DNA of 64,000 bases from Prochlorococcus sp. MIT 1223 (GTDB taxonomy: Bacteria > Cyanobacteriota > Cyanobacteriia > PCC-6307 > Cyanobiaceae), in assembly GCF_034092465.1 (NCBI RefSeq), contig NZ_CP139303.1, forward strand, positions 1,516,865 to 1,580,864. The letters run 5' to 3'. Position 1 is the first letter of the stretch. Each line of letters starts with the position of its first letter. The notes beneath the pieces were generated by a model. That model worked only from the letters and a program-made list of their open reading frames with translations, did no database searches and was not told where the DNA came from. This document shows positions 52,353-57,058 of this stretch, piece by piece. A program made the translations under genes and the position numbers.

Positions 52353-52796
52353 CTATTCCTTTGCGCCATGTGTTGCACAGGGCATCCATAGGGTTCCCAT
52401 TTTGTGAACGCCTAAACATCCAATCTTTTTAGCTTCTTCTTCAGCTTTGGCTCTCGTATAGTAGCCATATATATTTTTAGATTCTGAAATATCTTTACTA
52501 TTTAATTGTTGCTGTAGAGCGGTTCCTTCGGGACTCCAGACTTTTAGTCCCATCGTAGTTATTCCTGCAGAGAATATCCCCATGCCTACTATTGAAGCAT
52601 TAATTACTCCCATAGCTACGACACCAAGTGATGCGACTCCCATGGGAATTATCCCTATAGATATAATTCCCATGGGAACAATTCCTATAGATATGAAGCC
52701 AAGAGGTGCTATCCCAAAGGCAATTTTTTTTGGACTAGTACCACAATGAGAACTTTCTTCTGATTGTGGTTGGTTAGATTGATTGGGTGTAGTCAT
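52353..52796 (-). CDS. glycine pentapeptide-repeat membrane protein with DUF3721 end
   Basis: A 147-residue protein. Residues about 33-82 are about ten five-residue repeats with Gly first (GFISI, GIVPM, GIISI, GIIPM, GVASL, GVVAM...). The C-terminal 45 residues match DUF3721 (GCLGVHKMGTLWMPCATHG), shared with the lipoprotein next door. The repeats could form membrane helices or a narrow solenoid. The DUF3721 Cys/His set suggests metal binding (inference). Confidence 0.65.
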   Translation of the reverse strand: MTTPNQSNQPQSEESSHCGTSPKKIAFGIAPLGFISIGIVPMGIISIGIIPMGVASLGVVAMGVINASIVGMGIFSAGITTMGLKVWSPEGTALQQQLNSKDISESKNIYGYYTRAKAEEEAKKIGCLGVHKMGTLWMPCATHGAKE

Positions 52797-54674: not shown

Positions 54675-54857
54675 TTTGAAATAATATATAATTAAATTCA
54701 AATTTTTATATAGATTAAGATTTTTGATTACTGCTATTTAAGTTTCTTTATAGGGTATTTAGACTGCTTGCGCATTTAGAGCATTTCCACCCCACCCCTA
54801 GAAAAATAACTCTACTTTCGCTATATTATAGAAAAGTTTCATAAAGGAGGTGATCCA

Positions 54858-54959
54858 TTGTCGCATCTACCAATCGGTCAGGATTCAATGGGATTAAAAT
54901 CTGTCGACAACTTATTGACTTCTGCCTTGAAAGGTTTTTATATTAATAGGTTTATATAG
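54858..54959 (+). CDS. 33-residue micro-ORF behind a full-length anti-16S ribosome-binding site
   Basis: TTG start, MSHLPIGQDSMGLKSVDNLL..., stop TAG. Fourteen bases just upstream (54843-54856, AAAGGAGGTGATCC) are the exact complement of the conserved 3' end of bacterial 16S rRNA, with the TTG 8 bases from GGAGG. A TATATT box lies at 54822-54827. Two hairpins follow. An alternative is a fragment of reversed 16S DNA. Confidence 0.45.
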   Translation: MSHLPIGQDSMGLKSVDNLLTSALKGFYINRFI

Positions 54960-54978
54960 CTTTAAGCCTATTAATATA
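54939..54978. repeat. hairpin over the micro-ORF stop
   Basis: 12-base perfect arms (TATATTAATAGG / CCTATTAATATA) enclose the stop codon of the 33-residue ORF. Confidence 0.5.
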
Positions 54979-54980
54979 TA

Positions 54981-55011
54981 AAAGGGCCATTCACAAAGTG
55001 AATGGCCCTTT
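54981..55011 (+). terminator. strong Rho-independent terminator
   Basis: A 14-bp perfect stem AAAGGGCCATTCAC / GTGAATGGCCCTTT with an AAA loop and a short AT-rich tail. Confidence 0.8.
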
Positions 55012-55192
55012 TATATACAATGATTGGATATGTCAATATTAAATAAATTTCTCTTTAAGCTTACTTCCTAAATATTCATCCTTTAAGATATAATTAAACT
55101 TATAACTATTTAAAAGCTAGTTATTCTATCACTGGGCATTAACAATATGATTTACTTAAGTAACGAGAATCTACTTTCAGTACCTTAAATTC

Positions 55193-55555
55193 ATGCCTAT
55201 AGATAACAAAAAAGAAGGCTTCTGGTCAGTGATAGAGGATTTAATAGAGTCAAGTGAAATAAAGTATAAATCTGGAGACTATAAGGGTGCAATAGATGAT
55301 AAGCTTAAAGCAAGAAAGTTTATATCAGATAATTCAAATATAATTAATCTTAAATCGAAGTTTAAATCCTTGATAAGGGATTTAAATTGCAATAACGTAA
55401 AATATAATTTAATAGACGATTATAAAACTAAGATAGATGAAACCAAGAAATTAGAGATAATTATTCAATTAGAAAATTTAAGCAAGGTCAAATATGATTC
55501 TGGCGATTATAAGGGTGCAATAAGAGCAATGAGAAGGTCGGAAAAATATTATTAA
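55193..55555 (+). CDS. TPR-like repeat protein
   Basis: A 120-residue soluble protein. Two copies of I-K-Y-x-SGDYKGAI separated by about 75 residues are the start of TPR-like helix pairs. It is probably a small protein-interaction module. Confidence 0.6.
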   Translation: MPIDNKKEGFWSVIEDLIESSEIKYKSGDYKGAIDDKLKARKFISDNSNIINLKSKFKSLIRDLNCNNVKYNLIDDYKTKIDETKKLEIIIQLENLSKVKYDSGDYKGAIRAMRRSEKYY

Positions 55556-56408: not shown

Positions 56409-56514
56409 TTATAACTAATGTCCTAAGTGCTGATTAATAATATGAGAATTAATAGATATGATTGACTAATGATTCTCATTGATAGGCCGCTCAAGAAGAA
56501 TAGTCATAAATGTA

Positions 56515-57058
56515 TCAGACGACTCATTTTTTAGCTGCAGCAGGTATGGTCACTTGGGCGCTCGTTGAATATTTTAAAGCAGGAAAAGCTACTGCTGTTG
56601 AGATGGCAACTGGAGCTGTAGCTGGATTAGTAGGAATTACTCCAGCTAGATGAGTGATTATTGGATTTATTACATCTATTCTTTGCTTCTTGGCCGTTAA
56701 GTTAAAAGTTAGGCTCAAATTCGATGATGCGCTAGATACTTTTGCTGTTCATGGAGTAGGAGGAACCTTTGGCGCATTGCTGGCAGGAGTATTTGCTAAA
56801 GCTGAATTAATTTCTTCTTACCCTGCCGCAGAAGTTCTTTTAGATCAGGGGAGGATAGGTTTAATCATTGGTCAGTTAGAGGCTGTAATTATTGCTTATG
56901 GAATTTCTGCTGGGGACACTTTATTAATTGCTTTGCTCTTAACGAAATTTGGATGTGACTTTAGGCTCACAAAAGCTCAAGAAGAGATTGGTTTAGATAT
57001 GAATGAGCATGGAGAGGAGGCTTATTCAGAGAAGATAGGTTCTCCGATGATAAGTTAA
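56515..57058 (+). pseudogene. amt: ammonium transporter (Amt) C-terminal remnant
   Basis: Reads TTHFLAAAGMVTWALVEYFKAG...ATGAVAGLVGITPAR, then TGA at 56651, then in the same frame VIIGFITSILCFLAVKLK...DTFAVHGVGGTFGALLAG. Both parts are Amt. About ten residues are missing at the junction, and the first half of the gene is absent. Confidence 0.8.

Follow-up and report, generated by a model that had tools for sequence, protein, structure and literature searches.

A conserved 33-codon micro-gene with a 13-nt Shine-Dalgarno match in Prochlorococcus-type cyanobacteria

An ORF of 33 codons in the 64-kb window (the whole stretch of 64,000 nucleotides of Prochlorococcus sp. MIT 1223 DNA analysed here) raises the question what so small a gene does with a ribosome-binding site that matches the 16S rRNA tail over such a length. 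The first-pass annotation had offered a highly translated peptide, a small RNA that titrates ribosomes or a fragment of reversed rDNA. The match was examined against the genome's own 16S rRNA, whose 3' end ...GGATCACCTCCTAAC is read as GGCTGGATCACCTCCTAACAGG. A full 14-base match had been reported; AAAGGAGGTGATCC is present at 54843-54856, as a single copy in the 1.80 Mb genome, but its two leading A's are unpaired with the 16S tail. With GGCTGGATCACCTCCTAACAGG as the 3' end, the complementarity is therefore 13 nt, namely AGGAGGTGATCCA, which extends to the last base before the TTG start, and no longer complementarity to the tail was found within the window. The predicted duplex with the 16S tail has an energy of -24.8 kcal/mol, whereas the 43 window ORFs of at least 120 aa average -8.2 kcal/mol, with -17.0 kcal/mol as the strongest. 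The Shine-Dalgarno (SD) sequence is indeed far beyond a normal ribosome-binding site, as had been claimed. GGAGG is followed by 7 nt and TTG, which places SD and start codon at a functional spacing.

Around the ORF, the elements of a putative short transcript were found (Table 1). The promoter-like box noted in front of the SD is kept in the orthologues as TANNNT, at about the same distance in 37 of 39, where shuffles gave 28 on average and 36 at most; it is mostly within GCTANNNT, and G(C)TA precedes it in most of them. GTTT is conserved in most orthologues about 20 nt 5' of the start codon. The correctly spaced TTG ORF was confirmed, and so was the double hairpin, one part over the stop codon and a second, strong one (fold z = -7.6). 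In 39 orthologues, 339 of the 351 pairs of the stop-codon hairpin are formed, a count biased upward since similarity was used to place the 3' arm, and a G-C/A-U exchange is seen at the inner pair; the 40-aa orthologue group has not retained this hairpin. At the terminator position, the aligned orthologues have a hairpin and then a T tract, the T tails of the relatives being longer than that of the window copy. The terminator scanner called no terminator at the micro-gene, which is probably explained by the T run inside the stem.

Table 1. Features of the micro-gene, in window coordinates
Feature	Position	Strand	Basis
-10 box TATATT (GCTANNNT)	54822..54827	+	Sequence and orthologue conservation; candidate promoter
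Short 5' UTR GTTTCATAAAGGAGGTGATCCA (putative)	54836..54857	+	Conserved GTTT; transcription start predicted
AGGAGGTGATCCA, perfect 13-nt complement of the genome's 16S 3' end	54845..54857	+	16S comparison, duplex energy, orthologues
33-codon ORF, TTG start, LSHLPIGQDSMGLKSVDNLLTSALKGFYINRFI, TAG stop	54858..54959	+	ORF reading, peptide profile
C-terminal module ALKGF(x)INRFI and stop	54924..54959	+	Amino-acid selection; present on other tiny ORFs
Stop-codon hairpin, ATTAATAGG (54942-54950) with CCTATTAAT (54967-54975)	54942..54975	+	Folding, orthologue pairing
Terminator hairpin AAAAGGGCCATTCAC-AAA-GTGAATGGCCCTTTT, could act in both directions	54980..55012	+	Sequence, folding; predicted

The distribution of the gene was determined in 300 sampled genomes of the picocyanobacterial family. 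The SD pattern search matched 79 of them, and 74 remained when five matches (L151-L155) were rejected as unrelated coding sequences. The gene occurs in one copy per genome, mostly in genomes of 1-2 Mb. As genomes matched by the pattern have the SD by design, an independent search was made with a profile of the peptide, and the 69 genomes with a full-length match (E below 1e-7) were all in the SD list as well. The SD core GGAGGTGATCCA was exact, with TTG directly after it and a variable base before it, in 25 of the 26 orthologues that were parsed correctly and counted among 28 loci fetched by the profile. The sole exception, GGGGGTGATCCA, is an A to G change that preserves a wobble pair, and one genus likewise has the wobble-preserving GGAGGTGATTCA as its SD. 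No genuine copy was found in the cyanobacterial sample outside the family. Because neighbours and strands differ between the genomes, a role as leader peptide or as attenuator for a gene downstream was rejected; no downstream gene is common to the orthologues. A known protein family was also rejected, since Pfam, NCBIfam and PDB contained no relative of the 33-aa peptide; a literature text search for peptide or DNA words gave nothing relevant. Judged from these comparisons, the locus apparently is a conserved, previously unannotated and free-standing 33-aa gene of Prochlorococcus-type cyanobacteria.

The coding constraint was followed along the ORF in the 39 orthologues of 33 codons. Pairwise differences at codon positions 1, 2 and 3 were 0.023, 0.032 and 0.210 in codons 23-33. 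The variation in the last 11 codons (ALKGFIINRFI*) is almost exclusively at third positions, with AGG/AGA/CGA, AAT/AAC and ATT/ATC/ATA alternating, and therefore the ALKGFxINRFI peptide end is under amino-acid selection. In the last eight codons of the 40-codon group, pairwise comparison gave 72 synonymous and 0 non-synonymous single changes, the pairs compared not being independent. ORFs of 30, 32, 33, 35 and 40 codons carry the tail in frame. With frame-preserving indels and amino-acid selection, the C-terminal codons, and these only, behave as those of a coding small ORF. The periodicity and the mainly or exclusively synonymous change argue for the translated peptide that the first-pass annotation had considered. 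The differences were 0.116, 0.109 and 0.146 in codons 2-12, which are conserved and hardly periodic, and 0.424, 0.316 and 0.429 in codons 13-22, which have no periodicity. Codons 2-22 are thus without clear coding constraint, and some of the conservation may reflect selection on the RNA.

SD block and tail also occur apart from each other. Five genomes keep the SD block and the N-terminus and have no tail; the tail-less cyanobacterial versions retain the SD, the start and the CAGGAGUCAA/UUGRCUCCUG hairpin, followed by a T run in several. The tail, on its side, is found on different tiny ORFs without the SD block, for example MLTRLFAHLSIKSLLKAKGFIINRFI, and the SD is therefore not needed for the tail's role. 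Tiny or short ORFs of this kind ending in (K/E)(G)FIINRFI were seen at L280, L281, L282, L283, L290 and L291. The FIINRFI tail mostly occurs as a single copy in a genome and, with few exceptions, stands at the stop codon; in one relative (L290) the ORF continues past the motif (INRFIKSNATPVV). The SD-less tail ORF of genome G131 adjoins a flanking block that also borders the SD gene in genome G032, which suggests one locus with a changed 5' part. A hairpin in the middle of the ORF was not claimed for the tailed cyanobacterial group, where the own partner had no advantage over exchanged ones (-9.8 vs -10.2).

With moderate confidence, we propose a free-standing small-protein gene that would be strongly initiated and would function through its C-terminal peptide. 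Transcription from near 54836 would give a short mRNA, some 175 nt long, that would capture 30S subunits through the extended, start-proximal SD helix; the helix would make up for a weak start codon, TTG, and for the structure of the body, and the ORF would be translated. The working part would be the conserved (L)KGFIINRFI, acting by first choice as a complete small protein or a docking tail and, less likely, inside the ribosome at completion.

Ribosomes of Staphylococcus aureus have been seen structurally to accommodate extended start-proximal SD helices (PMC13009471). As at the window locus, the helix is lengthened toward the start codon, and it serves UUG and GUG starts there and TTG here. 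In S. aureus the extensions are shorter and genome-wide, whereas here there is a single full-length site, and the SDs of the other genes tested are weaker. RNAIII/delta-hemolysin and SgrS/SgrT, dual-function RNAs cited in PMC2518516, have RNA- and peptide-level constraint in one small transcript, as the present locus does; no target-pairing region is known for the locus, whose conserved RNA element is the ribosome-binding site. Another comparison is with Yfr6 of Prochlorococcus MED4/SS120, a short-lived RNA of 239-244 nt with a conserved 33-aa ORF from nt 97, encoded beside a ligase gene or purK/yfr7 (PMC1242208, PMC2518516). Both are conserved 33-aa ORFs in Prochlorococcus, but the window ORF starts about 22 nt from the predicted transcript start and not at nt 97, and the ligase gene and purK/yfr7 were not recognised among the ORFs read near the micro-gene. 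In anatomy and neighbourhood the two differ.

The main product could instead be the RNA, a structured molecule with an exposed 16S-tail complement that would bind 30S subunits and titrate or sense free ribosomes, as CC2171-type RNAs might; we consider this rather unlikely. It draws on the alphaproteobacteria, whose start block AAAGGAGGTGATCC-NTGTC is the same as the cyanobacterial one. The exact start-block pattern had at least 120 matches in 84,980 species genomes, and those listed were nearly all from alphaproteobacteria, plus a few from Prochlorococcus; among sampled alphaproteobacteria, 57 of 289 genomes matched with at most one mismatch. Their usual layout is CAAC...GAAAGGAGGTGATCC-NTGTC, followed by an ORF, in most cases 14-35 codons long, and by a GC-rich terminator. 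Nine of 20 loci were CC2171 (Rfam RF01867, a Caulobacter sRNA) by Rfam's cut-off, many others falling below it. In favour of an RNA product, GAAAGGAGGTGATCC-NTGTC hardly varies and occurs just once in 14 of 15 genomes, and the ORF body has no periodicity (0.193/0.203/0.205 at the codon positions), has indels that ignore the frame and gave no sign of coding selection. The pairing of codons 2-7 with the pre-terminator stretch is stronger for own than for exchanged partners (-13.3 vs -10.7 kcal/mol), and this helix agrees with the Rfam structure. The SD, start and hairpin kept by the tail-less cyanobacterial versions point the same way. The clear amino-acid selection on the cyanobacterial tail speaks against it, and one mRNA species could hardly titrate thousands of ribosomes unless extremely abundant. 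NTG is always at the fixed spacing that translation needs, but the search patterns demanded this spacing. The alphaproteobacterial loci have no shared neighbours.

Pairing of the SD with an internal 16S mimic that would sequester it was significant in alphaproteobacteria, where 55 of 102 beat 95% of shuffles against 13 in the reversed control, and not in cyanobacteria. In CC2171 copies of the Bradyrhizobium/Rhodopseudomonas type (L089, L337, L339, L351), the ORF contains TCACCTC, which is complementary to the SD of the same copy; CCAGCGAG, further on, could pair with TCACCTC in place of the SD, possibly as a two-state switch. In Azospirillum (L033, L044, L052, L085, L086, L116) the start block precedes an ORF of 57-59 aa with a signal-peptide-like N-terminus and no short peptide.

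CC2171 and the window locus resemble each other as short free-standing transcripts (a predicted one in the window) with AAAGGAGGUGAUCCA, an NTG start, UC-N-(C/U)AU, a structured body and a terminator. The 5' block AAAGGAGGUGAUCCA-NTG-UC-N-YAU is present at the window locus, but the RF01867 covariance model gave 36.3 bits (E = 2e-6) against a gathering score of 75, and the locus is not a member by this measure. None of 10 Prochlorococcus-type genomes was over the cut-off, and other Prochlorococcus copies scored far lower or were missed. The closing helix of codons 2-7 with the pre-terminator stretch is not formed at the window locus, where its pairs are non-standard in the model alignment, and the consensus fold of the cyanobacterial orthologues differs from the CC2171 fold. 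The CC2171 type has no conserved reading frame in alphaproteobacteria, whereas the cyanobacterial gene has strongly periodic C-terminal codons and a conserved peptide end. The two groups have in common the 16S complement, placed in exactly the same way, and TC-N-YAT behind the start codon, and a similar working of the two start blocks is plausible.

Phage origin of the micro-gene was rejected, since no phage sequence was similar to it and the longer exact pattern had no match in viral contigs. The shorter pattern occurred in 22 viral contigs. In about half of them it goes with one and the same 65-aa phage gene and in a few with other genes, and some contain CC2171-like copies of the alphaproteobacterial type. 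In L338, L341, L342, L344 and other viral contigs, the 65-aa gene (LSTTVFDVLN...) starts from AAGGAGGTGATCCATTGTC. This independent use of a full-length SD shows that such SDs arise by convergence too. As the CC2171 model also refuses the cyanobacterial copies, common descent of the start blocks is not assumed.

A doubtful alternative is nascent-chain arrest, in which the strong SD would load ribosomes and KGFIINRFI would stall them at the stop codon, reporting on ribosomes or occupying them. In stop-codon arrest peptides such as TnaC, conserved residues are placed at the stop. Here too, strong conservation is limited to the last residues before the stop, the same residues end unrelated tiny ORFs at the stop, and a hairpin overlaps the stop codon. 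On the other hand, a terminator follows directly and no downstream gene is shared, which leaves no obvious regulated target; the relative with INRFIKSNATPVV runs on beyond the tail, and a C-terminal docking motif would give the same picture. We are similarly sceptical of a one-per-genome RNA class of alphaproteobacteria and Prochlorococcus that would engage the 16S tail at the start codon as its conserved role, sensing or buffering free 30S subunits, and to which Prochlorococcus would have added a C-terminal peptide holding the ribosome at the stop. A reversed ribosomal DNA fragment or a chance match can practically be dismissed: the 13 nt are identical to the reverse complement of the 16S 3' end, but alignment to the reverse complement of the 16S gene shares only these, with no wider 16S homology, the genome has no second similar site except the hairpin arms' own complements, and the micro-gene is conserved across 74 genomes.

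The small-protein gene that we favour would be an unannotated gene in a very abundant group of marine phototrophs, with an exceptionally long natural SD match. The SD is nearly unchanged across genera, though the other window genes tested have much weaker SDs. In alphaproteobacteria, an Rfam 'non-coding' family has a perfect translation start at its core, so that ribosome binding by such RNAs becomes testable, and the modular FIINRFI tail is a concrete new peptide to test.

Three neighbouring places in the window were also observed. Two adjacent ORFs at 56510-57058 resemble, by eye, parts of an ammonium transporter gene that may have decayed. At 55193-55555, a 120-aa ORF has a repeated KYKSGDYKGAI-like motif and no Pfam match. 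On the minus strand, the protein encoded at 52353-52796 has GLTT repeats and, after them, a DUF3721 domain.
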